Source: a virus
Reading direction: 5' to 3' (one strand)
DNA length: 48,063 bases
Virus record (IMG/VR): IMGVR_UViG_3300031999_000042
Span: 1-48,063 of that record
In this document: piece by piece, positions 8,035-20,781 of the stretch
Layout of the letters: the number at the start of each line of letters is the position of its first letter
Numbering within the stretch: position 1 is the first letter of the stretch
Notes under the pieces: generated by a model
What the model was told of the DNA's origin: nothing
The model's database searches: none
The model's input: the letters and a program-made list of their open reading frames with translations, nothing else
Translations under genes and position numbers: made by a program

Positions 8035-8057
8035 CTGAATAGCGTGTCAGTGTCGCG

Positions 8058-8073
8058 GAGCGATACTTCGCTC
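8058..8073 (+). promoter_or_regulatory. Small hairpin downstream of boxA (boxB-like)
   Basis: GAGCGA-TACT-TCGCTC is a perfect 6-bp stem with a 4-nt loop, just before the first early gene (start 8086). Size and spacing from the boxA match are similar to boxB hairpins of nut sites. It is separated by only 12 nt from the start codon and could instead affect translation. No N-like protein is assigned. Confidence 0.4.
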
Positions 8074-8085
8074 TGGGAGATTAAC

Positions 8086-8340: not shown

Positions 8341-8384
8341 TATCGCTGCGCGATACTGACACGCCCGATGTGCAATAGCGGGCG
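8331..8384 (+). repeat. Two inverted repeats after the first early gene
   Basis: GCGCAGC (8331-8337) pairs with GCTGCGC (8345-8351) across the stop codon, and CGCCCG (8362-8367) pairs with CGGGCG (8379-8384). Neither is followed by a T tract, so they are not clear intrinsic terminators. They lie in the 71-bp leader of the next gene. Confidence 0.5.
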
Positions 8385-8411
8385 CCCCTAATTCAACATG
8401 GGGGTGTCCGG

Positions 8412-8720
8412 ATGGATAAGATTGTTGTTGAGTTGTCGCCCGCTTTAGCGTCAATGGTGGCCAGTACGTTTGACGCTGCGAAAAAGCGGAATGACCCGAG
8501 GTTCCGATATTGCTCAAGTACCGCGGGCTTCACCGATGAGCTGCTGGGTTTTGCTATCGTCCGGCTGAAGTCCGAATGGACTTCGCGGGATAAGTACCGC
8601 GAAGCCTACGACTTGCGCGAAGTGGTCGCGGGGAACAAAGCGCCCACGCCCGCACAAGTGCAACTCCTCCAGCAGGCGCTGGACAGGCTCAAGCCGGCTG
8701 GGGTTCAGCCGAAAGCGTAG
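8412..8720 (+). CDS. Hypothetical early protein
   Basis: This 102-aa protein starts at ATG 8412 after a GGGGGTG-type site. It is predicted helical, with segments PALASMVASTFDAAKKR and VQLLQQALDRLK and a central REVVAGNK. It has no cysteine pair, no membrane segment and no family I recognise. A short inverted repeat (ACTAT-TGC-ATAGT, 8738-8750) sits in the gap before the next gene. Confidence 0.6.
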   Translation: MDKIVVELSPALASMVASTFDAAKKRNDPRFRYCSSTAGFTDELLGFAIVRLKSEWTSRDKYREAYDLREVVAGNKAPTPAQVQLLQQALDRLKPAGVQPKA

Positions 8721-8762
8721 CAGTGAAAGGGGCGTCCACTATTGCATAGTCGGGGGTGGAGT

Positions 8763-8999
8763 ATGATTAACATCGAATCAATACTCCACCGCTTACAACG
8801 TGATGCCGAGCAAACGCGGCTGCGCGCCGCGGAGCGCTACGCTATCGCGCGTAGCCCGATACGCTATAAACCGCAGGCGCGAACCGCTATTGAGCTTGAC
8901 CGTGAACTATCGGTAGCTCAGGCGAACAGGGTTGCCGGAGCGCCGATATTTTGTTGCCACGGTAAACTCGCTCGGATACAATGTAAGCGGTGCGGGTGA
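8763..8999 (+). CDS. Small basic protein with C-terminal zinc-site pattern
   Basis: This 78-aa protein begins at ATG 8763 after GGGGGTGGAG. The N-terminal half is a charged helix (SILHRLQRDAEQTRLR). The C-terminus carries FCCHGKLARIQCKRCG, a compact Cys/His cluster able to bind zinc. Codons 25-31 lie in a 7-bp inverted repeat (GCTACGC 8836-8842, GCGTAGC 8849-8855), a word common in nearby non-coding DNA. Function unknown. Confidence 0.6.
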   Translation: MINIESILHRLQRDAEQTRLRAAERYAIARSPIRYKPQARTAIELDRELSVAQANRVAGAPIFCCHGKLARIQCKRCG

Positions 9000-9030
9000 G
9001 CAAAGCTCGTGGTGCTGCAGCGCTGATGCC

Positions 9031-9148
9031 GCGACAAGGCGGTGGGGAACGCGGTAGCTTAGGCGGGGAAACCTCCTCCGTGCTCCGCAGGAGATATCCA
9101 CGGAGTGGGAACCCCGCTACTTCCGCAAAAGCCCCGCCGCCCTGCCGC
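9031..9148 (+). ncRNA. Long structured RNA candidate (element R1)
   Basis: This gap forms a nearly continuous rod. GGCGG-T-GGGG (9038-9047) pairs with CCCCGCCGCC (9132-9141). Further in, GCGG (9051-9054) pairs with CCGC (9123-9126), CGGGG (9064-9068) with CCCCG (9112-9116), CTCCGTG (9076-9082) with CACGGAG (9099-9105), and CTCC (9083-9086) with GGAG (9090-9093) around the loop GCA. GTGGGAAC follows the inner stem on the 3' side, as in elements R2 and R3. No coding frame or known riboswitch is recognised. An ORF here exists only as a by-product. Confidence 0.55.
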
Positions 9149-9181
9149 TGTATCACCGCGCAAGCAGCCCTGCCCAACCCA

Positions 9182-9224
9182 AGCGGGTGGCTCTGCCACT
9201 GCCACCCGCTCCTACCTTCGGTAG
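9182..9224 (+). repeat. Two tandem hairpins in the early intergenic region
   Basis: AGCGGGTGGC (9182-9191) and GCCACCCGCT (9201-9210) form a perfect 10-bp stem with a 9-nt loop. Immediately after, CTACC-TTC-GGTAG (9212-9224) forms a 5-bp stem with a 3-nt loop. There is no T tract directly behind, so a rho-independent terminator is unlikely. These may be part of the same structured transcript as R1. Confidence 0.55.
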
Positions 9225-9595
9225 ACGCTGTGTGTGTGATAGATTGCGCCTGCGAGATAGCGAGTCCTAGAAAACAGCTCTAAACAGATGTTCCTGCGCA
9301 AAGCACGCAAGCAAGCATAGCTCAGCTACGCCAGCGGAGCTAAAAGCCAAACGCCAAATAGACAATTCGGCAACTTCGTTGGGGAGAACTAATCCCTTTT
9401 ATTTTTCTAATTTTTTTATTTTTTTTTTTTTTGGTAATAATAGTTTTAAGTCCTCCGTAGTTTTTTGGTGCGGTGCACGGGTGGGGAGCTTCGCTTGTGG
9501 TGCAGCGTAGCTGCGCTAGGAACATCTGTCCAGAGCTGTTTTGGACCGAACACTATCACAAACACAACAGCGTAGCGCTCTAAGTGTAACTCACT
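9225..9595. other. Non-coding region with AT-rich tract, origin candidate
   Basis: No gene is supported. A sharply AT-rich stretch (about 9393-9451) includes a run of 14 T (9419-9432) in an otherwise GC-rich genome. It is flanked by small palindromes such as GCAGC-GTA-GCTGC (9502-9514) and GCTTCGC (9488-9494). An easily melted tract beside short repeats fits a replication origin, but no clear iterons are present. The T run after a weak GC region could alternatively end upstream transcripts. Confidence 0.4.
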
Positions 9596-9647
9596 GAAAA
9601 CAAAGCAATTGTTTCTCTTGACAAGCAAAGCTCCGCTACGCTATGCT
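9596..9647 (+). promoter_or_regulatory. Early promoter P1 with conserved upstream element
   Basis: GAAAACAAAG (9596-9605), then 12 nt, then TTGACA (9618-9623), then 18 nt, then TATGCT (9642-9647). The same upstream box at the same 12-nt spacing precedes two other early promoters. The expected RNA start coincides with ATG 9655, so the transcript is probably leaderless. Confidence 0.7.
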
Positions 9648-9654
9648 TACTATT

Positions 9655-10077
9655 ATGACAACCGAAATCTCAACCGAAGTCCGTCCAACCGAAGCATGGT
9701 GCCGTTGCGGAAAGCCCGCAAAGCGGGTTCACTGTCCAGCTTGTGGGTCTCTGACCGTGTATGGCTTGCCGTCACGGGCAGAGTGGAAGACTTTGCCAGA
9801 TGGCACAGAAATCGAAGTTATGTCCTATCGGTGCCGGCGGTGCAGCCACATCTTCAACGACTTTGAGTGGATGCTGCAATGCGAAGCGCCAAAGCTGGAG
9901 AACAAGACCATGCGGGAGCGGCGCTTGCAGGATGAAGCTGAAACAAAGCTAGCCGCGGCTCTTGCCGAAGTCGGCGGGGACCGGAAGGAACTCCTGCGGA
10001 GGTTGCTGGGCAAGCCGGCGGCGGCTGCGCAAGATGGTGCTCTGACAGAGCCCACCAGCGGAAAGGAGGTGATTTGA
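9655..10077 (+). CDS. Zinc-ribbon protein with helical C-terminus, leaderless
   Basis: This 140-aa protein has two cysteine pairs near its start (WCRCGKPAKRVHCPACG) and a third (YRCRRCSHIF) about 45 residues later, an arrangement typical of zinc ribbons. The C-terminal half is charged and helical. I choose ATG 9655 because ATG 9643 lies inside the -10 box of P1; with ATG 9655 the mRNA would start at or next to the start codon and has no Shine-Dalgarno site. Probably a DNA- or RNA-binding early protein; function unknown. Confidence 0.65.
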   Translation: MTTEISTEVRPTEAWCRCGKPAKRVHCPACGSLTVYGLPSRAEWKTLPDGTEIEVMSYRCRRCSHIFNDFEWMLQCEAPKLENKTMRERRLQDEAETKLAAALAEVGGDRKELLRRLLGKPAAAAQDGALTEPTSGKEVI

Positions 10078-10078
10078 C

Positions 10079-10492
10079 ATGAGAGCGGAGACCACAGAAA
10101 AGATAGAAGTGTGGGAAGGACAAGTCTGCATCAGGATACTTGTACAAGCTCAGCCAGAACACATACCAGAGGCAATGAGAATCATCACGAGGGCAGCCGA
10201 GCACCTTGTAACAAGGGAGAGGGAGGTTGTGTGGGCAGGAATAGGAGCAAAAATCAGCCTGCTCAGCGTGGACGGCCCACTCCCTCTACCAGAAGGCAGC
10301 GAAGCAATGACAGAGCACCCACTTGTGACAATCCTGAGAGAGATAAGCGAACGCTGGAGCAGAATATCTCATGCCGCAGAACCCGGCTCGCTACTGCAAC
10401 GCGCATGTAGCACGCGCGTGAATGATGCAAACACGCTCCTGTACCAGTTTACTCAGGCAGAAAAGAAACTTAGAGAGGCAACAAAGGCATGA
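10079..10492 (+). CDS. Hypothetical early protein
   Basis: This 137-aa protein starts 1 bp after the previous stop, with GGAGGTGATT inside the upstream gene as ribosome site. An N-terminal alpha/beta part (VCIRILVQAQPEHIPEAMRII) is followed by helical charged segments. No catalytic or metal motif is visible and I recognise no family. It overlaps the next gene by 4 nt (ATGA), indicating one transcript. Confidence 0.6.
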   Translation: MRAETTEKIEVWEGQVCIRILVQAQPEHIPEAMRIITRAAEHLVTREREVVWAGIGAKISLLSVDGPLPLPEGSEAMTEHPLVTILREISERWSRISHAAEPGSLLQRACSTRVNDANTLLYQFTQAEKKLREATKA

Positions 10493-10698
10493 CCAACGCC
10501 CAAATGTGGAACAGTCTCAGCTACCAGCAAAAGCGGGTGCTGCTTCGCATTGCCACCAACACGCAGAGCGTGGAGCCGCTCTTGCTAATGCACAAATTCA
10601 ACGAACAGCACCGCCTGGACACAGTCCTGCGGGACTGGGCCGCGCTATCGCGGCATGTCAAAGAGTCTATCCAACGTCTGACAAGGAGGGCACCATGA
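10489..10698 (+). CDS. Small helical early protein
   Basis: This 69-aa protein starts in an ATGA overlap. It is helical and basic with segments LSYQQKRVLLRIA and DWAALSRHVKESIQRL, resembling a small DNA-binding helical bundle, but without a clear helix-turn-helix. Function unknown. Confidence 0.6.
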   Translation: MTNAQMWNSLSYQQKRVLLRIATNTQSVEPLLLMHKFNEQHRLDTVLRDWAALSRHVKESIQRLTRRAP

Positions 10699-10850
10699 AG
10701 TTGATTCGTAAGCACGGCGAGAAATACATTTACCGCTTACCGTCTGGATGGTTCGTCAAGCAGCACCCAATGGCCCAGCTCAGGGTGTATGGGTCGCCTA
10801 GCGGTAAGACCCGATTCGCGGTCCGTGTACTCAACTGCTCCGCTTTCTAA
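10695..10850 (+). CDS. Small basic protein (51 aa)
   Basis: It starts at ATG 10695 after AAGGAGGG and overlaps the previous stop by 4 nt. The product is basic and aromatic with YIYRLPSGWFVKQH and a beta-rich pattern ending NCSAF. Spacing and ribosome site support it; no family recognised. Confidence 0.6.
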   Translation: MKLIRKHGEKYIYRLPSGWFVKQHPMAQLRVYGSPSGKTRFAVRVLNCSAF

Positions 10851-10880
10851 CCCAGCGGAGCCGGCAGGTTTGCCGCCTGC

Positions 10881-10992
10881 CTTCGGCTTCTCGCTTTATG
10901 TGGCGTGCCAACGGCACGACGAGAACCCGTCGCCAGATAGAATGACGGAATAGTGGGAACCGCTATCTGGCACACTAAGCGGGGAGCCGAAG
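10881..10992 (+). ncRNA. Three-way-junction RNA candidate (element R2), riboswitch-like leader
   Basis: A closing stem of 12 pairs (10881-10892 with 10981-10992, two G-U) encloses hairpin CGTGCC-AAC-GGCACG (10904-10918) and hairpin GCCAGATAG/CTATCTGGC (10932-10940, 10963-10971). GTGGGAAC lies in the second loop near its 3' side. The closing stem ends directly before the AGAGAGGTGG ribosome site of the gene at 11004, so folding could control translation. It matches no riboswitch I know. Confidence 0.6.
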
Positions 10993-11003
10993 AGAGGTGG
11001 CCA

Positions 11004-11165
11004 ATGGCCAAATCAACCTTCAACGTCGAGTTGACCGTCCGACACGGTGATGAGCTGGATGACCCAGCGAAAGCTGAGGATTACCTCACTGACGCCCTCC
11101 AGCAGATGCTCAATGCTTTCGATGATATTGTGGATTTCCAGTTGGAGAAGATACGAACATGGTGA
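11004..11165 (+). CDS. Small protein under the R2 leader
   Basis: This 53-aa protein starts at ATG 11004, a few bases after AGAGAGGTGG. It begins with a short beta segment (TFNVELTVRHGDE) followed by an acidic helix (YLTDALQQMLNAFDDIVDF). I recognise no family. If R2 is a regulatory leader, this protein and the overlapping next gene are its targets. Confidence 0.6.
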   Translation: MAKSTFNVELTVRHGDELDDPAKAEDYLTDALQQMLNAFDDIVDFQLEKIRTW

Positions 11166-11365
11166 TACGCAAATCAGTGCCGTGGCACAACGTAAGGGCC
11201 GTCAAGGCCCTAGCACCGGAAGGCCAGCTCGTGGCCTTTGTTGATAACCTATCCGCACTACAGCGGCGGATGCTACGCCGCATCCTAAAGTCTTTCCTTG
11301 CCAAGAAGCAAAAACTCACGCGCAAGCGTGCCAAGAAATCGCGCAAAGCCTTGAAAACAAAGTAA
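11159..11365 (+). CDS. Small very basic protein
   Basis: This 68-aa protein overlaps the previous gene by 7 nt. The C-terminal third is almost entirely Lys/Arg/Ala (QKLTRKRAKKSRKALKTK), suggesting nucleic-acid binding. Its last codons overlap the upstream box of promoter P2: GAAAACAAAG encodes part of the LKTK tail. The 25-aa peptide at 15579 has the same arrangement with promoter P3, so the gene end and promoter may have been duplicated together. Confidence 0.6.
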   Translation: MVIRKSVPWHNVRAVKALAPEGQLVAFVDNLSALQRRMLRRILKSFLAKKQKLTRKRAKKSRKALKTK

Positions 11366-11403
11366 TTATAGTTCTTGACACTTTCGCCCTTATGGCTCAT
11401 ACT
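11353..11403 (+). promoter_or_regulatory. Early promoter P2 with conserved upstream element
   Basis: GAAAACAAAG (11353-11362), 12 nt, TTGACA (11375-11380), 17 nt, CATACT (11398-11403). Spacing of the upstream box to the -35 box is identical in P1 and P3. The leader to the next gene is about 50 nt and has a normal ribosome site. Confidence 0.75.
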
Positions 11404-11461
11404 GCTAACGTAGTTGGAAACGAAATCGGTCGCCCATCGGTCGACCAGAAAGGAGAGCCAA

Positions 11462-11899
11462 ATGAAAACCTACACCGAAACCCGAGGCGCTGTCAAGGTC
11501 GGGGACGACATCAAAGTCCTGACCGAGAAGCAAATCGAGAAAGCCCAGAAGGAGGCCACCGAGAACAACCAGCCGGAGCCGGAACTCCAGTCCCTACAGA
11601 CCGTGGAGTTCATCGAGGCGGAGACTTGGGCCGAGGCGTTGGAGTTGGCCCAGAGCGAACCCGTCGCTGTGGACATCTTCAACCGCGGTTCAATCCTGAA
11701 ACAGCAAGCGTATGTCCGCGACTTGCTGGCGGACCCGGCGTACCAGCCCGTCGAGGGCGCGCTGGACCTCCGCGCGAGCGTCGCCGAAGTGAAGGAGCGC
11801 CGGAAGGCGACCCCGAAGGAAAAGGCACTCAAGTTCCTGGCGGGGCTCAGTCCGGAAGACCTGGCGGCCGTTATCGCGCAGTTCGCTTCTGCGGGATAG
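11462..11899 (+). CDS. Hypothetical acidic early protein
   Basis: This 145-aa protein starts at ATG 11462 after AAAGGAGAG; a TTG at 11414 has no ribosome site. It is acidic, with a beta-rich N-terminus (GAVKVGDDIKVLTEKQ), a middle segment (FIEAETWAEALELAQSEP) and a helical end (EKALKFLAGLSPEDLAAVIAQF). It is the only gene between promoter P2 and a strong terminator, so it is probably expressed as a single-gene unit at high level. No family recognised. Confidence 0.65.
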   Translation: MKTYTETRGAVKVGDDIKVLTEKQIEKAQKEATENNQPEPELQSLQTVEFIEAETWAEALELAQSEPVAVDIFNRGSILKQQAYVRDLLADPAYQPVEGALDLRASVAEVKERRKATPKEKALKFLAGLSPEDLAAVIAQFASAG

Positions 11900-11933
11900 C
11901 TTCGCTGGCTTTGCTGGAAAGCTGCACCCCCAA

Positions 11934-11976
11934 CCGTCCTGTGATACAGAACACCGTATCACGGGGCGGTTTTTTT
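11934..11976 (+). terminator. Rho-independent terminator
   Basis: GTGATAC (11941-11947) and GTATCAC (11956-11962) form a perfect stem around an 8-nt loop, extended outward by mostly paired CCGTCCT and GGGGCGG. Seven T residues follow directly (11970-11976). This is the clearest terminator in the window and closes the P2 unit. Confidence 0.9.
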
Positions 11977-12001
11977 ATTGCCTAGAGGCCAAGGAGCCAA
12001 T

Positions 12002-12445
12002 ATGGCCAATGTAAGAATTTGGTGGGACACTTCCGTATCGGCGTATCGCATCGCTACTCCGTACTCAATGGAGTTTGTCACCGCCATCAAAGCACTCATA
12101 CCCGCCAGCGACCGCGCCTTCGACCCCACAACGAAAGTTTGGACCTTCACCGAGCGGTTCTTTGACCCGATGCGGCTTCTCTGCGAGAAGGTCTATGGCA
12201 AACACAACGTAGTTGCGGTAACGCGGCAGCAGGCCCAGTCCGCCCAGGCGCCAGCCAGCATTACGAAATCCACAGCCTCACAGCTTGCTGTGGATTTCCT
12301 AACGCTTGTCGGTTTCGATGCCGCGCAAGCGGCCTATCGGAGGGCAGCGACAGTGTTGCATCCGGACCACGGTGGAGATATGGAAGCAATGACCAAACTG
12401 AACGCAGTTTGGGACCGTCTACAGAAGGAGGTGTTCAAGGTCTGA
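12002..12445 (+). CDS. DnaJ-like J-domain protein with novel N-terminal domain
   Basis: This 147-aa protein starts at ATG 12002 after AAGGAG. The C-terminal part (about 95-147) matches a J-domain: a helix AAYRRAATVLHPDHGG with the HPD motif at 120-122, then KLNAVWDRLQ. J-domains stimulate Hsp70 ATPase, so it probably recruits host DnaK. The N-terminal 70 residues (VRIWWDT, DPTTKVWTF) form a separate alpha/beta domain I cannot name. The stop overlaps the VWA gene by one base (TGATG), implying coupled translation and a joint role. Confidence 0.8.
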   Translation: MANVRIWWDTSVSAYRIATPYSMEFVTAIKALIPASDRAFDPTTKVWTFTERFFDPMRLLCEKVYGKHNVVAVTRQQAQSAQAPASITKSTASQLAVDFLTLVGFDAAQAAYRRAATVLHPDHGGDMEAMTKLNAVWDRLQKEVFKV

Positions 12446-13149
12446 TGGCCATCATAAAAAACAACAACGCCCTCCAAAAGCCCCACCGCGTTGGCGGTGG
12501 CTTGCCTGCGCTTCACCAGCGTGTGCTGGCGCAGGTGGACAAGCCCATTGACCTGACCGCGAAACCCAACCGAGTCGCACTCATCTGCGACAACAGCGGC
12601 TCAATGTCGGCAATGGACGACTACAACGTGAAGAAATCCCGCATCGAATATCTCCGCGAAGCGGTTCAGTCGTTCCTGCAAAGCTGCAATCCCGACGACA
12701 CTGAAATCGCCATTTACAACTTCGGCGGCAAGGACGAGGACGACCGGAGGCTCGGCACAGACTTCGGCACGCTCACAGTCTGCGCCCTGACAATGCAGGC
12801 CCAAGGCGGTACGCCGATGGGATGGGGCATGGAAAAAGCCCTGCGGGAACCGCTCTCACGGGCCGTTCTTATCTCCGACGGCGAGGCGACCGACGGCGAT
12901 GCCTCATACAAACAAGCCGAAACATTCTGCGCCGCACAAGTCCCGGTCGACTGCATCCACATCGGCCCGACTGAAAGTGGCGAAGCCCGGCTGCGGCGCA
13001 TAGCAGAGCTGACGGGCGGAATCTACATCAAGTTCAAGGACGTAGCGCAACTTGCGACGAAGCTCCACTACCTGACCCCCGCCTATCGCGGTCTGCTTTG
13101 CGACAAAAATGAGGCCAAGCTACTGCTTGGCGCGGATGAGGTGGACTAA
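12445..13149 (+). CDS. von Willebrand factor A (VWA) domain protein
   Basis: This 234-aa protein carries a full MIDAS metal site: DNSGSMS at 49-55, Thr123 in GGTPMG, and Asp145 in ISDGEATDG. VWA domains bind partner proteins through a divalent metal. The alternating beta strands (RVALICD, TEIAIYNF, RAVLISD, VDCIHIG) fit the Rossmann-like fold. There is no signal peptide, so it acts in the cytoplasm. Coupled translation with the J-domain gene suggests one chaperone-like or remodelling complex. The start ATG 12445 lies in the TGATG overlap. Confidence 0.85.
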   Translation: MAIIKNNNALQKPHRVGGGLPALHQRVLAQVDKPIDLTAKPNRVALICDNSGSMSAMDDYNVKKSRIEYLREAVQSFLQSCNPDDTEIAIYNFGGKDEDDRRLGTDFGTLTVCALTMQAQGGTPMGWGMEKALREPLSRAVLISDGEATDGDASYKQAETFCAAQVPVDCIHIGPTESGEARLRRIAELTGGIYIKFKDVAQLATKLHYLTPAYRGLLCDKNEAKLLLGADEVD

Positions 13150-13390
13150 GCTGCAAATAAGCACCACCAACCCGAAAAAGCGCCAAACACGCGGCAAGCG
13201 TGCTCACTTCCATATCCTCACTTGCCCAAGCTGCGGCGCCCAGATATGCTCCGCATATCGTGTGCGGCACACCTACACCGCGCTGCGGGATTGGCTGGCC
13301 GACGCCTTCGCCCTGCGCCGCAAGTTTGCGTCTTCGACGCCGAATCAGCCAACTTTGTTTGGAGGGGACAAACCATGGCTCGTGAAATAG
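13136..13390 (+). CDS. Small basic protein with CxxC motif
   Basis: This 84-aa protein starts at ATG 13136 inside the VWA gene end (14-nt overlap). It is basic at the N-terminus (TTNPKKRQTRGKRA), has one CPSCG pair, and continues helical (YTALRDWLADAFALRRKF). With only one clear CxxC, zinc binding would need dimerisation or other ligands. A G/A-rich ribosome site for the next gene lies in its 3' end. Function unknown. Confidence 0.55.
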   Translation: MRWTKLQISTTNPKKRQTRGKRAHFHILTCPSCGAQICSAYRVRHTYTALRDWLADAFALRRKFASSTPNQPTLFGGDKPWLVK

Positions 13391-13596
13391 CAGTAGCAGA
13401 GTGGCGGGTGTTCACCGGCGCAGTCGAGTGCCCACGGTGCAAGCTGGTAATGCACATCGCCGATAGGCCGATGTCACTGGAAGTGGTCGACTGCCGTGTT
13501 TGCGGTACAGTCTGCTCGATAATCAAGCCTCGGGACGAACTTGGCCGGGAGTTGGTGCCAAGAGTGAGTAGTCCGGGGGAGGGTCCAGCGAGATGA
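13375..13596 (+). CDS. Zinc-ribbon protein (73 aa)
   Basis: It starts at ATG 13375 after GGAGGGGAC and overlaps the previous gene by 16 nt. Cysteine pairs ECPRCK and CRVCG are separated by about 22 residues, the usual geometry of a zinc ribbon, between short beta segments. No enzymatic motif. Likely a nucleic-acid or protein-binding adaptor. Confidence 0.65.
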   Translation: MAREIAVAEWRVFTGAVECPRCKLVMHIADRPMSLEVVDCRVCGTVCSIIKPRDELGRELVPRVSSPGEGPAR

Positions 13597-13850
13597 GCCA
13601 ACGAGTCAGAGCGAAGGTCTGCAAGTTATCACTTTGTGAATGCGGCTTCCACGTCCTGCGAGATGAAATAGGTATCGGGGCTGAGTACACCATTTACCCA
13701 GATTCCATCGAGAAGGGATGGACATTCATCTGCGGCGGCTGCGGAGCTATGCTAAAGGTTGCGGTTGTACTAGCCGACCAAACCGAAGGGAAGCCTCGAC
13801 GGCCGCTGCCGCTTGACATTTTCGATTATCCAAACTCCGCTCAAGTGTGA
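13593..13850 (+). CDS. Zinc-ribbon protein (85 aa)
   Basis: It overlaps the previous gene by 4 nt (ATGA). CKLSLCECG near the start and ICGGCG about 35 residues later form a likely zinc site, with beta segments between. The C-terminus is Pro-rich and acidic. It is the third zinc-ribbon-type gene in a row, directly before the FtsK-like motor. Function unknown. Confidence 0.65.
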   Translation: MSQRVRAKVCKLSLCECGFHVLRDEIGIGAEYTIYPDSIEKGWTFICGGCGAMLKVAVVLADQTEGKPRRPLPLDIFDYPNSAQV

Positions 13851-13854
13851 TTAA

Positions 13855-15006
13855 ATGATGAAGACCACCGCGAATCTGACCGCAGAACAAGTTGCCATCC
13901 TAGCAAAGATTGCGGTGAAATTCGCCGAACTCGGCGTTGAAGCGGACTTCGTACCTCCGGTAGCTGAAGGCCCAATTATATCAGCGTACCGCTTCTTCCC
14001 AACAAGCCGGACCCGCGTTTCCCACCTAGAGGTGCTCGCCTCTGACATCGCGGTGACGCTCGGCGTGGAAGATATCCTGATAAAGCGGTTGCCGGGTGAG
14101 AGTGCCGTCGGCGTTTTCGTACCGAACGCCAAGCGTTCCTTCATTGATTTCAAAAACACCGTCAACGCAGTTTGGACACACCAGGCCAGCGACCTTCGGT
14201 ATGATGTGCCGTTGAACCTTGGCGTAGACCACCTAGGTCGACCTGCGATTGAAAACCTAGCAATGCTGCCGCACTTGCTTATCGCCGGAAGCACCGGCGC
14301 AGGAAAGTCCACGCTGCTGAGCAGCATCCTCGCCACGATTGTTTATATTGTAAACAGCAACGCCGTTCAGCTTGTGCTGTCGGATACGAAGAATGTCGAG
14401 TTTGGGCACTTCATTGGTGCTCCGCACCTGCTGTTCCCGCCAGCAACCAGCGTCTATCAAACCCTTGAGCAGATGGACTGGGTCATTGATGAGATGGAAT
14501 CCCGGCTCAAAAAGCTCAGCAAAACCGGCTGCCGCAACGTGCATGAATACAACCTTATCTGCGCGCCAACAGGCGGGCGCTGCACACCATTGCCATTCAT
14601 CGTCCTTGTCATTGACGAACTCGCGGATTTACTCATGGACAGGGCGCGTCCGAGCGAGGGTCGCGGCCCGTCCATCGGCAAAATCGCCGAGTCGAAGCTA
14701 TCTGCGATAGTGCAGAAGTCACGGGCTGCTGGGGTCTATGTCATCGCCTCGACCCAGCGACCTTCGGTGAACGTAGTTATTGGCTCAATCAAAGCGAACT
14801 TCCCAGCAAGGCTGTCGTTCCGGCTTCCCAGCGAGGCCGACAGTCGGACTGTCTTGGGCTTCTCAGGGGCCGAGCACCTTTTGAGCCGAGGCGACATGCT
14901 GTTTGTAAGCCCGAATCGACCGGGGGTCTTGAGACTCCACGCGCCGTATGCGTCAATTACTGACATCCAGGCTGCGGTAGAAGCAGCCATCCAAAGGAGC
15001 GTATAA
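13855..15006 (+). CDS. FtsK/SpoIIIE-like DNA translocase
   Basis: This 383-aa protein has the FtsK motor domain. An N-terminal alpha/beta part (to about 130) is followed by Walker A GSTGAGKST (145-153), SDTKNVEF (176-183, counterpart of the FtsK DPK motif) and Walker B FIVLVIDELADLL (248-260). VIASTQRPSVNVVIGSIKANFPARLSF and LLSRGDMLF are strongly conserved in FtsK. There are no membrane segments and no gamma domain, so it lacks the usual KOPS-reading part. In bacteria FtsK pumps dsDNA; a phage version might act in DNA segregation, conjugation-like transfer or replication. It has no good Shine-Dalgarno site. Confidence 0.9.
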   Translation: MMKTTANLTAEQVAILAKIAVKFAELGVEADFVPPVAEGPIISAYRFFPTSRTRVSHLEVLASDIAVTLGVEDILIKRLPGESAVGVFVPNAKRSFIDFKNTVNAVWTHQASDLRYDVPLNLGVDHLGRPAIENLAMLPHLLIAGSTGAGKSTLLSSILATIVYIVNSNAVQLVLSDTKNVEFGHFIGAPHLLFPPATSVYQTLEQMDWVIDEMESRLKKLSKTGCRNVHEYNLICAPTGGRCTPLPFIVLVIDELADLLMDRARPSEGRGPSIGKIAESKLSAIVQKSRAAGVYVIASTQRPSVNVVIGSIKANFPARLSFRLPSEADSRTVLGFSGAEHLLSRGDMLFVSPNRPGVLRLHAPYASITDIQAAVEAAIQRSV

Positions 15007-15007
15007 C

Positions 15008-15214
15008 ATGGCAAACCTTTGTACCAAACAACCAGCAGACCATACAGGAATTAGGCCGGCCGATAAGTATTGCTACCAGTGCGGTGCGTTGGTAAGAAAG
15101 GGCCACTTCACCTGCGCCAAGTGTGGCGTGGAACTTGAACCACACCAGGAATTCTGCTCAGACTGCGGTTCTAAAGCGGGGGAGGTCGAATGGACGCAAT
15201 CATCCTCGGGATAG
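15008..15214 (+). CDS. Double zinc-ribbon protein (68 aa)
   Basis: Three CxxC pairs appear in order (YCYQCG, TCAKCG, FCSDCG), resembling double zinc-ribbon modules. The gene starts 1 bp after the FtsK-like gene stop and overlaps the next gene by 25 nt. It may be an adaptor of the FtsK-like motor, by proximity only. Confidence 0.7.
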   Translation: MANLCTKQPADHTGIRPADKYCYQCGALVRKGHFTCAKCGVELEPHQEFCSDCGSKAGEVEWTQSSSG

Positions 15215-15450
15215 CCGAAGACAAAGAAGCCCGCGTCTTTGAAGGCGCCCTCTGTGTCATTATCTTTTCCGGAGGAATAAAACCGAAGGTCACTTTTATG
15301 AAACGGCCGGAACTCCCCGGCTGGCTCAACGCCCATCCAGCGCCGGCGCCTGGCGCCAGGATGCTCATTGGGACGGTGTCAATCGTCGGGGAGTACCTAG
15401 GCACAACCACGGGAATGCCGACGCCGACTGGGGAGGTTGGACATGCGTAG
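15190..15450 (+). CDS. Hypothetical protein
   Basis: This 86-aa protein starts at ATG 15190 after GGGGGAGGTCGA. N-terminal beta-rich segments (IILGIAEDKEARVFEG, ALCVIIFSGG) are followed by a Pro-rich loop and another beta stretch (MLIGTVSIVGEYLG). I recognise no family. It is part of a run of closely spaced small genes. Confidence 0.55.
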   Translation: MDAIILGIAEDKEARVFEGALCVIIFSGGIKPKVTFMKRPELPGWLNAHPAPAPGARMLIGTVSIVGEYLGTTTGMPTPTGEVGHA

Positions 15451-15465
15451 CAGGGAGGCGCATCT

Positions 15466-15582
15466 ATGATGGAACTCTTGTGGTTTCTCGCCCGTTTGGT
15501 ATGCGTGGTGGTAGCAGGGTATGTAGTCGTCCCAGGCATAATCTTCTGGCTTACAGAAATTGCACCGGGAGACAAGCAATGA
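15466..15582 (+). CDS. Single-pass small membrane protein (38 aa)
   Basis: It starts at ATG 15466 after GGGAGGCG. About residues 4-30 are strongly hydrophobic (LWFLARLVCVVVAGYVVV), ending with a short polar tail EIAPGDKQ. It overlaps the next short gene by 4 nt. It may be a small membrane regulator; a holin role is possible but it sits in the early arm. Confidence 0.5.
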   Translation: MMELLWFLARLVCVVVAGYVVVPGIIFWLTEIAPGDKQ

Positions 15583-15656
15583 ACACGCCGGAAAAACCGA
15601 AATGCAGGCTTATTAAGAAAACTGCTAAGTCGCTGAAAACAAAGTGCTTATTTTAG
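15579..15656 (+). CDS. Basic 25-aa peptide overlapping promoter P3
   Basis: It starts in an ATGA overlap with the membrane-protein gene. The product MNTPEKPKCRLIKKTAKSLK-TKCLF is basic. Its last codons coincide with the GAAAACAAAG box of P3, just as the 68-aa basic protein at 11159 ends over P2. It may be a decayed copy of that gene end; confidence is low. Confidence 0.35.
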   Translation: MNTPEKPKCRLIKKTAKSLKTKCLF

Positions 15657-15685
15657 TTGACAAGTAGTTGTGACTATGAGACACT
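15635..15685 (+). promoter_or_regulatory. Early promoter P3 with conserved upstream element
   Basis: GAAAACAAAG (15635-15644), 12 nt, TTGACA (15657-15662), 17 nt, GACACT (15680-15685). The start codon of the next gene (15691) is 6 nt behind the -10 box, so the mRNA is predicted leaderless. Confidence 0.7.
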
Positions 15686-15690
15686 AGAGC

Positions 15691-15867
15691 ATGGCAACTC
15701 CAAATCCAAACCGGAAAACGCTTTCATTTCAGGTTTCCCTGCTGCTGTGGGAGCGGCTTAGACACCGCATACCGAGGTACGGGGACCGCTCCGAGGTGCT
15801 ACGTCAGCTTGTTGAGAAGTTCTTGGCGGGGGACGTGGTAATAATTAAAGCTCCTAGGAGGATTTGA
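15691..15867 (+). CDS. Ribbon-helix-helix-like small regulator candidate, leaderless
   Basis: This 58-aa protein was found by frame inspection. The N-terminus TLSFQVSLLLWERLR could form the DNA-contacting strand and first helix of a ribbon-helix-helix (Arc/MetJ) dimer; GDRSEVLRQLVEKFLAG matches the second helix, with the typical S-E-V-L-R pattern. It is the first gene after P3, has no ribosome site, and would be translated from a leaderless mRNA. It is the best candidate for the protein that reads the ACAAAGT sites, but this is inference. It overlaps the next gene by one base (TGATG). Confidence 0.6.
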   Translation: MATPNPNRKTLSFQVSLLLWERLRHRIPRYGDRSEVLRQLVEKFLAGDVVIIKAPRRI

Positions 15868-16430
15868 TGTCAGCCTGTTTTTACTGTGAGTCTGAGGGCT
15901 TAGGCGACCTCGCAGTCGAGACGACAATGGCCTGCCGCATATGCAGCAACCTCTACTGCGAAAACCACGCCTCCGAAGCCGAACCAACATTCTGTAAAAA
16001 CTGCACGGCAACCCCCAAGCTCGAAATCACCGAAAAGCCATTGATTGACGATGAGGGCGTCCAGCACAACGGCCGGGAAATCTCCATCAAAGGCGAGACG
16101 TGGTACTCACAGTGCCGCATCATCTCCGAGCTTTCCGAAGTCGAGCTTCCCCAATGGATTGACAAATATCGGATGATGCTCCACGACGCGGAACGCGCTA
16201 AGGAGTATCGCCAGATAATGCTCTCTGCGTTGGAGCTTGAGCAAGCTGACCGTGCGCATACAAAAGCACGGGCGCTGCGGTATGTCAAGGTTCCAACGAC
16301 TGCTGCGAAGCAAGCGGCCGCAAAACCGCGCCGAGACAAGATTACATCGGTTATTGAGTCGTTGAAGTCCGCCGGCCTGACGGCCGCAGATTTGCAGGCG
16401 TTGATTGCGGCGAAGGTGCAACAGAAATGA
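15867..16430 (+). CDS. Protein with N-terminal treble-clef-like zinc region
   Basis: This 187-aa protein has a cysteine/histidine-rich N-terminus (CFYCESEG, CRICSNLYCENH, CKNC) like B-box or treble-clef zinc fingers, then a helical middle (about 75-130) and an Ala/Lys-rich linker. A C-terminal helical motif SLKSAGLTAADLQALIAAK resembles small oligomerisation or H-NS-like C-terminal segments. ATG 15867 follows CTAGGAGG. Probably nucleic-acid binding; no exact family. Confidence 0.65.
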   Translation: MSACFYCESEGLGDLAVETTMACRICSNLYCENHASEAEPTFCKNCTATPKLEITEKPLIDDEGVQHNGREISIKGETWYSQCRIISELSEVELPQWIDKYRMMLHDAERAKEYRQIMLSALELEQADRAHTKARALRYVKVPTTAAKQAAAKPRRDKITSVIESLKSAGLTAADLQALIAAKVQQK

Positions 16431-16693
16431 GCCATGGTACGGCGACGACAAGAAGGAAGCTACCGCCATATCGCCCAAGGGCCAAGTGCCCAAAGTGCGG
16501 CCATCAGAAAGTTGACACAACTTTCCACGCAGCTAAGATGTTCTACCAAGACGGCTGCGCCTTTGCCGGCTGGCACGGCGGGAAAATGCAGCGGGAGCAC
16601 CTACACCGCACTTGCCTACATTGCGGCTTTGAATGGCCGGAAGCGTGTGAAGATTCCAAATGGAAAAAGACGAAGAACCCGACGACAAAGTAG
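16427..16693 (+). CDS. Zinc-ribbon protein (88 aa)
   Basis: It starts in an ATGA overlap. CPKCG near residue 21 and CLHCG near residue 63 flank a His-rich segment, giving a zinc-ribbon layout like restriction-protein or primase ribbons. The tail is Lys/Thr-rich. No other domain. Function unknown. Confidence 0.65.
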   Translation: MSHGTATTRRKLPPYRPRAKCPKCGHQKVDTTFHAAKMFYQDGCAFAGWHGGKMQREHLHRTCLHCGFEWPEACEDSKWKKTKNPTTK

Positions 16694-16857
16694 ACGAGTA
16701 TGGAGATTGGGTGTCGCTCTTATGCTTCCGCGACTTCCACCATCTCTGTCACCATGAGAAGGATTGCCACTGCCCTTGCCATAAACAAGAGAAGCCAAAT
16801 GAGACACATGAGACACTCAGCACTCGGAAGATTCCTGAGAAAAATCGAGCCAGATAG
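16660..16857 (+). CDS. Small Cys/His-rich protein
   Basis: This 65-aa frame overlaps the previous gene by 34 nt and the HNH gene by 59 nt. It holds CFRDFHHLCHHEKDCHCPCH, a dense Cys/His block able to bind metal, between acidic and basic ends. The HNH insertion may have disturbed this locus, so it could be a truncated remnant. Moderate support. Confidence 0.4.
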   Translation: MEKDEEPDDKVDEYGDWVSLLCFRDFHHLCHHEKDCHCPCHKQEKPNETHETLSTRKIPEKNRAR

Positions 16858-17311
16858 CAACGGTTGTTGGCTGTGGAAAGGTTGCATAGAGGCTGCTGGG
16901 TACGGCAAGTTCTACAACGGCCACGAGGTTGTGAGGGCTCACGCCTACGCATACCAACAATTTCTTGGCCCCTACGATGCGAGCTTCTTGCAGGTTCACC
17001 ACAAATGCCATAATAGGTCCTGTGTTAATCCCCAACACCTAACACTGACCACAAGCAGAAACCACCCCGATAGCCCAACCTGCACAAACAGGCAGATAAG
17101 CCACTGTCTGAGGGGGCATGAATATACCAAAGAAAACACTGGCCGCGCGAAAGGCACTCTGTCTAGGTATTGCAAACAATGCCACCGAGAAAGACAAGCA
17201 GAGCGGAGGAGACTAGAACATGGGCGCTACAAACAATTCTTGCGAACAAAGCCCCCCGACCCACAACGAGGTCCCGGGGCTGGCGACGCCGCTGTTCCAC
17301 GTTCTCCCTGA
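16799..17311 (+). CDS. HNH homing endonuclease
   Basis: This 170-aa protein starts at ATG 16799. GCWLWKGCIEAAGYGKF followed by QVHHKCHNRSCVNPQHL is the classic small HNH endonuclease with His-His, zinc cysteines and Asn-Pro-x-His-Leu. A second cysteine cluster (HCLRGHEYTKEN, YCKQCHRERQ) lies in the C-terminal half and resembles DNA-recognition modules of such enzymes. The reading frame runs 92 nt into the nuclease gene, which is unusual and suggests recent insertion. It is a selfish nuclease rather than a core phage gene. Confidence 0.85.
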   Translation: MRHMRHSALGRFLRKIEPDSNGCWLWKGCIEAAGYGKFYNGHEVVRAHAYAYQQFLGPYDASFLQVHHKCHNRSCVNPQHLTLTTSRNHPDSPTCTNRQISHCLRGHEYTKENTGRAKGTLSRYCKQCHRERQAERRRLEHGRYKQFLRTKPPDPQRGPGAGDAAVPRSP

Positions 17312-18230
17312 CGGTCGGTGGAGCTTTATGTACGACTCCAGCACGATAAAACCCTTCTCACTTTGCGAACGGCAGTTTCACTACCAGGTTCTCCGGAACC
17401 TCCGCAGGAAAGGCCGCCGGGCGTCCATGGACATCGGTTCTTGGTGGTCGGCCGTGATGTCCGACTTCTATGAAGGGATGTTGGCGGGGACGCTGACCCA
17501 ACAATCAGCGTTGCTGAGCGCGGCCCGGAATTGGGCCGCCCTGGACATGGACGCCCTCGAAGAGCACGACCCCCGCGGCTTCAAGTCCTTCGGCGGCCGT
17601 GATGGCGCTATCACAATGATTGGGAGATACCACAACCGTCAGGCCGATATTGACTCCAAGATGTGGAAGATTGTGTCCACAGAAGCCGGCGCCGGTCGCA
17701 GGCACGAAATCCTTGTCGGCGAGAACAATAAAGTCGTCGTTTATTATGTAATCAAACCCGACATGCTAGTCGTTGACCAAAACCGGCTGTGCCCAGTTGA
17801 CCACAAAACAGTTGATAGAATCAGCGCAGACCTTATCAAGAAGTACAAGCCGCACGACCAGATTCAAGGCTACATCTTCGGCGTTGGTGCTATCGCAAAG
17901 AGCATTGGCTGGGACTTGCCGGTCGACCGTTGTATCGTCAATGTTTGTGCTCGGACGGAGCCGAAAGATGATGCCGTTCGATTCACGCGGGTTTATCCGA
18001 GCTACTCTTTGCCAGAGATGCAGGAGTGGCAGGCTCGGAAGGTCGAGCAGGCCACCCGGCTCCGCTATTGCTTTGAGAACGACGTTTGGCTTGCTGACGA
18101 CCAAGCCTGCCATATCTACAGCGGTTGCAGCTACCGGCTCATCTGTGCAGTTCCACCAGGCTCGCGTGAGTTGGTTATAAACGCGGACTACGTCCAGGTT
18201 GAGCCGTGGGTGCCTTATGAAATCGAGTAG
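17220..18230 (+). CDS. Cas4/RecB-like PD-(D/E)XK nuclease with Fe-S cysteines
   Basis: This 336-aa nuclease starts at ATG 17220 after GCGGAGGAG. SLCERQFHYQ (Cys49) is the N-terminal cysteine of the family. The active site is seen as KPDMLV (Asp181) and PVDHKT (Asp194, Lys196). Near the C-terminus ACHIYSGCSYRLIC supplies three more cysteines, matching the 4Fe-4S cluster of Cas4, AddB and related 5'-3' exonucleases. It probably resects DNA ends for recombination together with the ATPase and SSB candidates downstream. Confidence 0.8.
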   Translation: MGATNNSCEQSPPTHNEVPGLATPLFHVLPDGRWSFMYDSSTIKPFSLCERQFHYQVLRNLRRKGRRASMDIGSWWSAVMSDFYEGMLAGTLTQQSALLSAARNWAALDMDALEEHDPRGFKSFGGRDGAITMIGRYHNRQADIDSKMWKIVSTEAGAGRRHEILVGENNKVVVYYVIKPDMLVVDQNRLCPVDHKTVDRISADLIKKYKPHDQIQGYIFGVGAIAKSIGWDLPVDRCIVNVCARTEPKDDAVRFTRVYPSYSLPEMQEWQARKVEQATRLRYCFENDVWLADDQACHIYSGCSYRLICAVPPGSRELVINADYVQVEPWVPYEIE

Positions 18231-18254
18231 GCAGTAGAGCTAAAAGGAGTCGGC

Positions 18255-18512
18255 ATGAAGTTCCGAAAGAAGCCGGTTGTTATCGAGGCCATTCAGTGGA
18301 CGGGCAGCAATTACGAGGAAGTATCTGAGTTCATGCAAACACAAAGGGGGACAGTTGATATTGACGACCCCCTGAATCCTGCCCTACTGGTCCACACAAC
18401 AGAAGGTGTTATGAAAGCCAGTCCTGGTGACTGGATTATTCGTGGGGTCAAGGGCGAGTATTACCCCTGCAAACCTGACATCTTTGAGATGACCTACGAA
18501 CCAGTGATGTGA
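18255..18512 (+). CDS. Conserved small phage protein (PGDWIIRGVKGEYYPCKPDIF family)
   Basis: This 85-aa protein begins MKFRKKPVVIEAIQW and contains SPGDWIIRGVKGEYYPCKPD near its end, both instantly recognisable from many unrelated phages. Function is not known in the family. It starts after AAAGGAGT. It lies between the nuclease and the ATPase genes and is probably co-transcribed. Confidence 0.8.
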   Translation: MKFRKKPVVIEAIQWTGSNYEEVSEFMQTQRGTVDIDDPLNPALLVHTTEGVMKASPGDWIIRGVKGEYYPCKPDIFEMTYEPVM

Positions 18513-18545
18513 GGCACAGCAGGAGGAACAAGGAAAGGAGTCAAC

Positions 18546-19334
18546 ATGGAACTTGTAATAGCCGACCAAATAACACCATTTACGAAGCTGAAATTAGCTG
18601 AAATCGGGCCGGAAAAGTCCGGCAAATCCCGCCTCGCCGCCACCGGCAGGAAGCCAATTCTGTTCTTCGACTTCGACCAGCGGGCTGAAAGCATCGCCGG
18701 CATCTCAGGCGTGTACGTCATTACGTTCCGTGACCGCGGGTATCCCTACCAGCCAGAGGCTTTCAGTGAGATGCTGGACGTTATGACCAAGCTGGAGCAG
18801 AGCTTAGACTTGTCCCTGCTTGGCTTTGACGTTCCTCCGGGAACCTTGGTGAAAACGCTCGTTGACGATAGCATGTCAACAATGGCAAAAGCTGCAATGG
18901 AATTCGCGCTGTTCACGACCAAGGAAATCCGGCGCGAAATCAGCGTCGGCGGCAAGATGATGGTCAGGATTCCAAAGAGCTATGATGCCTGGGCCGCCGA
19001 GATGTCCATGGTCGAAGCGGTGGTTCTTAGGCAACTGGCGCTGCCGGGCGTTGATGTTATCACAATCTTTCACGAAGCTGCTGAGGAGGCACCGGAATCA
19101 ACCGACACAAACCCGAGGTTCACCGGCAAAGTCACTACATTCCCGGTGCGTTACCATCGGTTGCTCAAGTACTTCAACGAAGTTTGGCGGATAAGCCGCG
19201 CCGGCGGCACTGTACCGCAGGTCAAAATCGCACCGGACTATCAATTCACAACAGCAACCTGCCTCAACCTTGACCCGGTTGAGCAGCCGAACATCGAGGA
19301 AATGCTGCGCAAGCAGCCACAAAAAACTACATAG
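18546..19334 (+). CDS. Sak4-like RecA-fold ATPase (AAA_24-type)
   Basis: This 262-aa protein has Walker A GPEKSGKS (21-28), a first strand FFDFDQ (40-45), and a Walker B-like TLVDDSMSTM. Phage ATPases of this kind, often annotated as AAA or Sak4, promote single-strand annealing with an SSB partner. The neighbouring genes are a PD-(D/E)XK nuclease upstream and an SSB candidate downstream, the classic recombination set. It starts at ATG 18546 after AAAGGAG. Confidence 0.8.
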   Translation: MELVIADQITPFTKLKLAEIGPEKSGKSRLAATGRKPILFFDFDQRAESIAGISGVYVITFRDRGYPYQPEAFSEMLDVMTKLEQSLDLSLLGFDVPPGTLVKTLVDDSMSTMAKAAMEFALFTTKEIRREISVGGKMMVRIPKSYDAWAAEMSMVEAVVLRQLALPGVDVITIFHEAAEEAPESTDTNPRFTGKVTTFPVRYHRLLKYFNEVWRISRAGGTVPQVKIAPDYQFTTATCLNLDPVEQPNIEEMLRKQPQKTT

Positions 19335-19346
19335 GAGGTTTTACCA

Positions 19347-19811
19347 ATGCCGAGAATGGGTGTAAGCACCGAATCCCTGAAAGGAATGCCGACGATGCCG
19401 CAGGACATCTACACCGTCCGACTCGACGGCTTCGAGCCACGATTCTCCAAAGACCGCGGCTCAGTCAACCTCAACCCGAAGCTGGTGGTTATCAACCACC
19501 CAACACTCAACGACCGCCGGGTCTTCGACAACCTCAACAGCAAAGCTGGCTGGATTCAGCTTGATTTCTGCCACGCTTTCGGGCTCCCGATGCTCGTTGA
19601 AGGAGACACCTCCTTTATCCCCGGCGAGTTCCAGGGACCGGACAACGACCCGGAGAGGTGGAGCTATGTCGGCCCGCTGACCGGCCGGCTCGCAAAGGCC
19701 GAGGTTGCTGAGGTGGACAACCAAAGGGGTGGCACCAGGAACGCTGTGAAGCGGTACATCTGCGCGGTTGCTGGGTGTTCCACAAAGCACAGTGACAACT
19801 TGGTTGGGTAG
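19347..19811 (+). CDS. Putative single-stranded DNA-binding protein (DUF669-like)
   Basis: This 154-aa protein starts after AGGAGG. The beta-rich central part (YTVRLDGFEPRFSK, LNPKLVVINHP) and the segment WSYVGPLTGRLAKAEVAE, followed by YICAVAGC, resemble DUF669-like phage SSB proteins found beside Sak4-type ATPases. Aromatic residues are spread as in OB folds. Assignment relies on gene order plus the pattern. Confidence 0.6.
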   Translation: MPRMGVSTESLKGMPTMPQDIYTVRLDGFEPRFSKDRGSVNLNPKLVVINHPTLNDRRVFDNLNSKAGWIQLDFCHAFGLPMLVEGDTSFIPGEFQGPDNDPERWSYVGPLTGRLAKAEVAEVDNQRGGTRNAVKRYICAVAGCSTKHSDNLVG

Positions 19812-19962
19812 CAGAGCTTGGGCGCGTGCGGCGTGTGAGCCGTGGGATTCCGAACGGGTCGAGGTCATGCGCATAGACCCACCTAGCCGTCGGAGGCAAG
19901 CGGCCACGCGTCCATCAAGATGCGCCGCCAGCGAGGTTCGATTCCTCGTGTCCTACGCAACC
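19802..19962 (+). ncRNA. tRNA-like structured segment, unassigned
   Basis: A TPsiC-like arm CGAGG-TTCGATT-CCTCG (19932-19948) is unmistakable, but no 5' acceptor half or anticodon arm fits a tRNA. Instead GGTTGGGTAG (19802-19811) pairs at 9 of 10 positions with CTACGCAACC (19953-19962). Internal stems include GGGTC/GACCC (19856-19860, 19876-19880) and CGCGT/ATGCG (19907-19911, 19920-19924). It may be a degenerate tRNA, a tRNA-mimic RNA or a former attachment-site remnant. It begins inside the last codons of the upstream gene. Confidence 0.35.
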
Positions 19963-19976
19963 TGCCTGAATGGCGA

Positions 19977-20056
19977 AAGTGGGCTGGACACATTGGTATG
20001 ATGGCGGCTCCAAGAATGCGGGCGGCCTAGTGGGAACTGAAAGACACGGCCCACTT
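19977..20056 (+). ncRNA. Structured RNA candidate (element R3)
   Basis: AAGTGGGCTG (19977-19986) pairs with CGGCCCACTT (20047-20056), ten pairs with one G-U. Inside, CCTAGTGGGAAC (20027-20038) shares GTGGGAAC with elements R1 and R2. A gene with a normal ribosome site starts 60 nt downstream (20116). No known riboswitch family recognised. Confidence 0.5.
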
Positions 20057-20115
20057 CAAGGTTCCAGTAACCAGTCTGGCGGGTCGCCCGGTTCAAGAAA
20101 GGTGCAAGGGCAGGA

Positions 20116-20319
20116 ATGATGGACGACCAGATTCTATCACTAATCCAGCAAGTAATTGACCGCTTACCATTAGGCGAGCCACATCGGGTCTGTGTCTTCT
20201 GCTTAGCTAACAGAGCGCCCAAATACGATGAGGTCACGTGCGGTTGGATACACCGATTTGGAATCGCAGGGCAGGCGATTGGGTGCAGAAGCAAGACTGG
20301 ATGTGTATTTCAGCTATAA
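20116..20319 (+). CDS. Small protein with CVFC pair
   Basis: This 67-aa protein starts at a tandem ATG after AGGGCAGGA. A helical N-terminus (MMDDQILSLIQQVIDRL) is followed by VCVFCLANRAPKYDE and further cysteines (TCGWIH, GCRSKTGC), so zinc binding is likely. It follows R3 directly. Function unknown. Confidence 0.6.
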   Translation: MMDDQILSLIQQVIDRLPLGEPHRVCVFCLANRAPKYDEVTCGWIHRFGIAGQAIGCRSKTGCVFQL

Positions 20320-20350
20320 AACTCCCAGTGAGGCACGGCAGGAGGGAACC

Positions 20351-20620
20351 ATGAAGCGCAAGGCGAAGAGATGGTGTGTGTGGGCAAGGTTTCAATGGCC
20401 TGCACCTAACACTTGGGTGCTTATCTGTACCTTCGAGAACCCCAACAGGAGCTACTCAGCCCGAGAATTGGCAACGGGATTTGTCGTTGAACGAAAATTA
20501 GTGCCAAATCTGGCGTTGTCCAGTTCTAGTTCTGGTCTTCAGATAATGCCGGGTTGGAAGCGAGACAGTTTTAGGATACTTCCCGAAGGCCAGCGGCCCA
20601 AGGCGAGGAGGAAACGGTGA
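20351..20620 (+). CDS. Small basic hypothetical protein
   Basis: This 89-aa protein starts at ATG 20351 after GGAGGGAACC. It is basic, beginning MKRKAKRWCVWARFQW, with a beta-rich middle and a Lys/Arg tail. The next gene begins with the similar MKRKKI-like VKRKKI, and both use GAGGGAACC or GAGGAGG ribosome sites, hinting at local duplication. No family. Confidence 0.55.
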   Translation: MKRKAKRWCVWARFQWPAPNTWVLICTFENPNRSYSARELATGFVVERKLVPNLALSSSSSGLQIMPGWKRDSFRILPEGQRPKARRKR

Positions 20621-20781
20621 AGCGCAAAAAGATATGCGGTCTTGACTACCTTGAGCAGCGTCCTGAAAAGTACGTGGCTGATGAGAGACTTTGGCATCTG
20701 CGCTGCGCCATTGTGGACATCACAAGGATGCTTCGTGAACTCGCCGCCGCCAAACCGATCCCGAAACGGAGGGAACCATGA
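20617..20781 (+). CDS. Small protein (54 aa), GTG start
   Basis: It starts at GTG 20617 in a 4-nt overlap (GTGA), with GGCGAGGAGG upstream, and ends in an ATGA overlap with the next gene. The product VKRKKICGLDYLEQ is basic then helical (HLRCAIVDITRMLREL). Both overlaps are typical of coupled genes. Function unknown. Confidence 0.55.
   Translation: MKRKKICGLDYLEQRPEKYVADERLWHLRCAIVDITRMLRELAAAKPIPKRREP

Follow-up and report, generated by a model that had tools for sequence, protein, structure and literature searches.

We analysed the 48063-base IMG/VR virus record IMGVR_UViG_3300031999_000042, which belongs to an uncultured tailed phage and is referred to at its full length as the window, and focused on three gaps among its + strand genes, designated R1, R2 and R3. 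R1 very probably represents a real, conserved RNA structure of the + strand. Its core (9024..9155, + strand) is a rod-like RNA with 48 predicted pairs that folding, alignment and a covariance model show to be conserved in four related records. The original prediction, made from the letters alone, had regarded the three gaps as a single new phage RNA element recognizable by a shared octamer, GTGGGAAC. The parts of that proposal that held are the strong folds of R1 and R2 and the status of R1 as a conserved + strand structure with no Rfam match; the reading as one element in three gaps is largely refuted, and the octamer link is unfit for defining an RNA family. As a conserved structure with a likely strand and likely boundaries, R1 is directly testable.

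Folding and conservation of the R1 rod

Folding z-scores were calculated against 200 shuffles each for R1 (9000-9180), R2 (10850-11003) and R3 (19950-20110), all of which had been expected to fold strongly. No shuffle was as low as R1 (-95.5 kcal/mol, z -6.28) or R2 (-76.0 kcal/mol, z -5.45), whereas 41 of 200 were as low as R3 (-57.4 kcal/mol, z -0.82). Strong folds are not confined to the R1 and R2 gaps, because a scan of the whole window (1370 segments of 140 nt, both strands, 25 shuffles each) contained 21 segments with z <= -4, R1 and R2 included. The R1 core alone gave a z-score of -6.35, and the 10-pair helix and further helices that had been recognized by eye were present in the predicted fold. 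An outer extension (9009-9023 with 9156-9173) is paired in the window; by eye it is unpaired in the related locus L002 and only partly paired in L018, and was therefore excluded from the core.

Relatives were identified in IMG/VR using the terminase large subunit of the window (gene 5117-6805, - strand), which yielded 18 loci. The R1 covariance model matched 5 of 19 sources, namely the window and the terminase-locus records L018 (48416 bases), L004 (39537 bases), L005 (4261 bases) and L002 (5014 bases). When applied to whole records, the model matched 2 of 14, those of L004 and L018. The gene order either side of R1 is the same in L002 and L005. The L002 homologue is shortened but forms the same rod with a small apical hairpin (z -5.23); the apical part of R1 (approximately 9068..9108, + strand) is long in the window and reduced to this short hairpin in L002 by a 26-column gap.

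The pattern of differences between the window and L002 follows the predicted fold. Four of 74 paired positions differ, versus 11 of 27 unpaired positions (Fisher p 5e-5), and when every paired column with letters in both sequences was counted, 8 of 79 had changed; none of 134 rotations of the structure mask gave as few. Pairing on the + strand was preserved by 4 of 4 helix changes between the window and L005, 3 of 4 between the window and L002, and 7 of 8 between L005 and L002. The corresponding counts for the - strand were 0 of 4, 1 of 4 and 1 of 8. Since the helix changes mostly keep + strand pairing and rarely - strand pairing, we infer that R1 is an RNA of the + strand. Excluding the apical part, R1 is identical at 87 of 102 positions between the window and L002; for comparison, third codon positions in three neighbouring genes are 62-76% identical and the spacer that follows R1 is 65% identical. 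The R1 indels span 2, 26 and 1 columns, none a multiple of three, and R1 is therefore not coding.

Several observations weigh against this interpretation. The three neighbouring genes, taken at full length, share 78-85% identity with L002, and R1 is no better kept than this coding sequence. Covarying pairs in relatives had been named as a check, and none of the R1 pairs had changed on both sides among the five sequences, which collapse to three distinct ones, although most helix changes kept + strand pairing as described above. Covariation likewise showed no excess over shuffles (500 of 500 as high), a lack of signal that follows from there being only three distinct sequences. Sliding the pairing partners by one column gave 6 versus 7 further pair types and a score of 0.085 versus 0.097, while the proportion of paired cells was 42% with slid partners versus 99% unslid. 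In the outer helix, 18 of 21 pairs are invariant, and such low helix variation may point to recognition of the sequence rather than of a mere double-stranded rod. The - strand of R1 also folds well (z -5.2), and at the sites that it detects the R1 model also scores 40-50 bits on the opposite strand. The pair counts used the window's own predicted fold, a bias in its favour that is partially answered by the mask rotations and by the L005-L002 comparison. For R2, the - strand folds too (z -3.9), and the three known copies (window, L004 and L018) are identical in the core and amount to one sequence only.

Among the relatives seen, R1 is restricted to a small phage group. Several further terminase-locus sources are fragments that stop short of the R1 region, while L008, L010, L011 and L013 extend more than 3 kb upstream of the terminase gene, and it is because these four show no R1 by covariance model that we regard its distribution as limited. 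A scan with a conserved R1 word returned 10 stretches, of which four were accepted as R1 (L022, L023, L005 and L025); L023 and L025 lie within the records of L018 and L004. The remaining stretches (L020, L021, L024, L026, L027 and L028) do not have the R1 context and were treated as chance matches. Matches to an R2 word were limited to the records of L018 and L004, and scans with neighbouring proteins and a downstream hairpin word recovered only the same four records (three in one scan), these being scans with a reach limited to close relatives. A DNA search of phage records with window positions 8700-11300 gave no match. In bacterial genomes, a terminase alignment led to one distant locus, in a Sulfuriferula metagenome-assembled genome, which had no R1 match (150 of 432 candidates scored).

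Two conserved hairpins follow R1 and are kept in all five records. The first (9182..9210, + strand) has 10 pairs and no T tract directly behind it, and the second (9212..9224, + strand), CTACC-TTC-GGTAG with five pairs, begins one base 3' of it. Further downstream, a T-rich tract (9397..9432, + strand) is present in all five aligned records, with a longest T run of 14 to 29 per sequence, and is a possible end of the upstream transcript. This tract lies in a non-coding spacer and is flanked by a 25-nt inverted repeat (92%) at 9271-9295 and 9518-9542.

Possible functions of R1 and R2

The predicted R2 core (10881..10992, + strand) consists of a closing stem enclosing three hairpins. A closing stem had been foreseen, with 12 pairs; the predicted fold has 16 contiguous ones. 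The proposed proximity to a ribosome site was borne out, as a ribosome-site-like GAGAGGTG occupies 10992..10999 (+ strand) and is followed by the ATG of a 53-aa gene with no Pfam match (11004..11165, + strand). The sequences of L002 and L005 stop before R2. In L018, an extra segment of ~400 bp (about 5373-5778) with two small open reading frames (ORFs; 69 and 56 aa) directly follows R2 and separates it from the counterpart of window gene 11004, such that R2 precedes another gene there.

Early mRNA of phage T7 is processed at RNase III sites between early genes, yielding separately stable pieces. By analogy with T7, we tentatively favour a model in which R1 and R2 would be independent cis-acting structures in + strand mRNA. 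R1 would be part of the untranslated sequence that follows gene 8742-8999 and act as an intercistronic rod, either cut by a host double-strand RNase of the RNase III type or blocking 3' exonucleases, and the message would thereby be split into separately stable pieces. R2 might play this role in the gap from gene 10695-10850 to gene 11004-11165, or control the downstream ribosome site. As in an RNase III site, a long irregular hairpin occupies a gap between genes of one block. The likeness to the T7 sites extends to the position of irregular hairpins in the gaps of a polycistronic block and to the closeness of R2 to the next ribosome site; the differences are that R1 has two further hairpins behind it and that its cleavage is putative.

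R1 and the two hairpins could alternatively be the body of a separate or 3'-UTR (untranslated region)-derived small RNA acting in trans on host or phage targets. We consider this unlikely, although the invariance of the outer helix exceeds the need for pairing and a promoter-like TTGCCA-17-TACAAT ends at 8982, just before R1. By eye, L002 has not kept the -35-like hexamer and L005 differs in the -10-like hexamer, promoter-like matches are as common in shuffles (6 versus a mean of 5.5), and a small RNA ending at the two hairpins would lack a T tract directly behind them. The long rod of R1 also invites comparison with 6S RNA, itself a long rod that opens into a large bubble at its centre; the internal loops of the predicted R1 fold are all small, such a bubble is absent and there is no Rfam match.

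It is likewise doubtful that R2, perhaps together with a hairpin before gene 8412, controls translation as a leader, with a paired ribosome site that a phage protein or an alternative hairpin on the 5' side would free. As in known leaders that sequester a ribosome site, GAGAGGTG is predicted to be mostly paired, with a mean unpaired probability of 0.29 in the R2 context of the window and 0.28 in L018. The predicted fold pairs an upstream GCCGCCT with AGGTGGC and, by eye, a GGCAGG/CCTGCC hairpin could hold GCCGCCT instead. A 5' switch is nevertheless not needed to explain the paired site, since the site is just as paired without the 5' part of R2 (0.28, through the gene start). The single R2 sequence also tells against such a leader, and the different next gene in L018 is contrary to autoregulation by the product of that gene. 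The stretch before gene 8412 (8369-8411, + strand) has similar counterparts in L002 and L005, and a possible ribosome site in it is covered by a hairpin, GGCGCCCC/GGGGGTGTC; the predicted unpaired probability of GGGGGTG in this stretch was 0.03 in L002 and 0.10 in L005, versus 0.54 in the window segment folded.

A broader and rather improbable interpretation is that R1 and the two hairpins (about 9024-9224) constitute a previously undescribed RNA of this small phage group, whose helix sequence, beyond its pairing alone, would be recognized by a protein or by polymerase, for example as a new type of factor-free antiterminator or a small RNA directed at a host process.

Several + strand genes of the window encode an HNH endonuclease, an exonuclease, a ParB/methyltransferase protein, a DNA polymerase and a primase, with a Sak4-like protein at 18546-19334, and by this gene content the block is taken to be the early region. 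The presence of structured RNAs in an apparent early region raises the possibility that R1 and R2 bind the polymerase during transcription and act in antitermination as put RNAs do. The put RNAs of phage HK022 are ~70 nt long, consist of two stem-loops and share sequence between putL and putR (PMC9378689). The two hairpins one base apart after R1 resemble this two-stem plan, and R2 lies ~1.2 kb downstream of a promoter-like repeat copy at 9587. R1 and R2 are, however, unlike put in length and, by model, have no sequence or structure in common with each other. Furthermore, the promoter repeat was not found upstream of R1 (8900-20300 scanned, and the whole window for close copies only); its copies are at 9587, 11344 and 15626. 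A put-like role is thus very unlikely, and less likely than an RNase III-type mechanism, because neither the length nor the similarity of two copies described for put is seen.

The promoter-like repeat is an observation in its own right. A block of the form TGAAAACAAAG....TTGACA occurs in three + strand copies (9587-9625, 11344-11382 and 15626-15664), which are possibly early promoters of the phage. The first two have 10 of 12 sigma-70 matches, and L002 and L005 have also kept the first. The promoter-like block GAAAACAAAG..TTGACA..TATGCT at 9596..9647 (+ strand) precedes the gene starting at 9643 or 9655. The T7-like promoter word ACACTATAG occurred at chance level (4 matches with one mismatch allowed, versus 3.25 expected).

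We hold it scarcely probable that R1 is a palindrome acting as DNA, at an origin, recombination or packaging site, rather than as RNA. R1 folds on both strands, and the 25-nt inverted repeat and T tract lie just downstream of it. In addition, the origin of the Streptomyces plasmid pWTY27 has the word GTGGGAAC as a direct repeat, and RepA binds there to a long inverted repeat that overlaps some of the copies (PMC3583192). That origin, as described there, has the word five times in 300 bp, whereas the window has single copies kilobases apart. Most changes in the R1 helices are neutral on the + strand through G-U pairing; a cruciform of DNA would carry them as mismatches.

R3, the shared octamer and the case for one element

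In R3, the proposed closing stem was present, and stability was not clearly above that of shuffles; tighter cuts gave z -1.14 (41 of 300 shuffles as low) and z -1.75 (16 of 300). The feature (20003..20107, + strand) keeps its closing stem in the relative G002, where the interior is replaced, the octamer is absent and the fold is better (z -3.15, 2 of 300 shuffles). We regard R3 as a weak hairpin without particular significance. Upstream of it, after gene 19347-19811, the non-coding stretch 19812-19930 (+ strand) is near-identical in four records, two of which have a replacement in the segment after it. A stretch resembling a T-arm before 19960 was considered as a tRNA or tmRNA and rejected, as ARAGORN found none in the window or in six loci.

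The octamer occurs exactly at 9105..9112 in R1 and at 10953..10960 in R2 (both + strand), where it had been located previously, and at 20030-20037 (+ strand) in R3, rather than at 20031-20038. Elsewhere in the window there is one further copy, at 35741-35748 on the - strand. The total of four compares with a mean of 1.56 in dinucleotide shuffles, 11 of 100 of which reach four. Before allowing for the many words and gaps scanned by eye, presence in all three gaps is a mildly unusual result: each of them has the exact 9-mer AGTGGGAAC, a 9-mer common to at least three of nine gaps (with hand-set limits) arose in 12 of 300 shuffles, and an 8-mer common to all three shuffled segments in 8 of 2000.

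The same structural position for the octamer had been named as a sign of support, but its position differs between the two strong folds. In the predicted R1 fold it extends from helix 4 across an internal loop into the start of helix 3, while in R2 it is in the apical loop of a 9-pair hairpin, with three weak isolated pairs only. Nor is it kept in homologues: the L002 R1 has AAGGGAAC in its place, and in R3 the word is gone with the replaced interior in G002 and G003, two of three relatives, the third (G001) being the same as the window. R2 has no divergent homologue for this comparison. The shared octamer looks like a coincidence rather than a family signature, and it has no part in the function proposed for R1 and R2.

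Other similarities could be cited for a single element. A gapped word, AGTGGGAA-(CC)-CCGCTA, is common to R1 and R2, a 10-mer is common to R2 and R3, and by eye R1 and R2 can both be drawn as a stem, a 5-6-base 5' bulge, GG.., GGGAA, CC.. and a stem. Local alignments between the gaps were nevertheless matched by shuffles (66 of 1000 for R1/R2, 314 for R1/R3 and 72 for R2/R3), and R1 aligned better with arbitrary pieces of the window (up to 25, against 21). A covariance model built from the three gaps together had been suggested; models were built separately for R1 and R2, with none for R3, and did not cross-match. The R1 model scored 4.3 bits on R2 (E 0.42 in 251 bases), and the R2 model found nothing at R1 or R3 except a 5.5-bit match on the wrong strand at 9176-9211. 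The next best + strand match of the R2 model in 8000-21000 scored 9.4 bits and lay at 11931-11977, in neither R1 nor R3. Given these results, it is extremely unlikely that the octamer marks a single new phage RNA element of which the three gaps hold copies.

Rfam comparison of the whole window brought none of 4227 families to the gathering cut-off, and in 8700-20300, with E up to 10, there were two chance-level matches elsewhere. In four of the loci, matches to mir-750 (L059, E 0.004) and CrcZ (L002, E 0.08) were far below gathering and were taken as chance.

Other genes of the window

A portal or head-tail protein is encoded at 2862-4757 (- strand). Two adjacent + strand ORFs, 23643-24845 and 24868-26217, match consecutive parts of the DNA polymerase profile phrog_17, and by this sequence comparison the DNA polymerase seems to be split in two. 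Upstream of them, the gene at 22305-23603 (+ strand) encodes a single protein that combines a ParB-like part with one for DNA methyltransferase.

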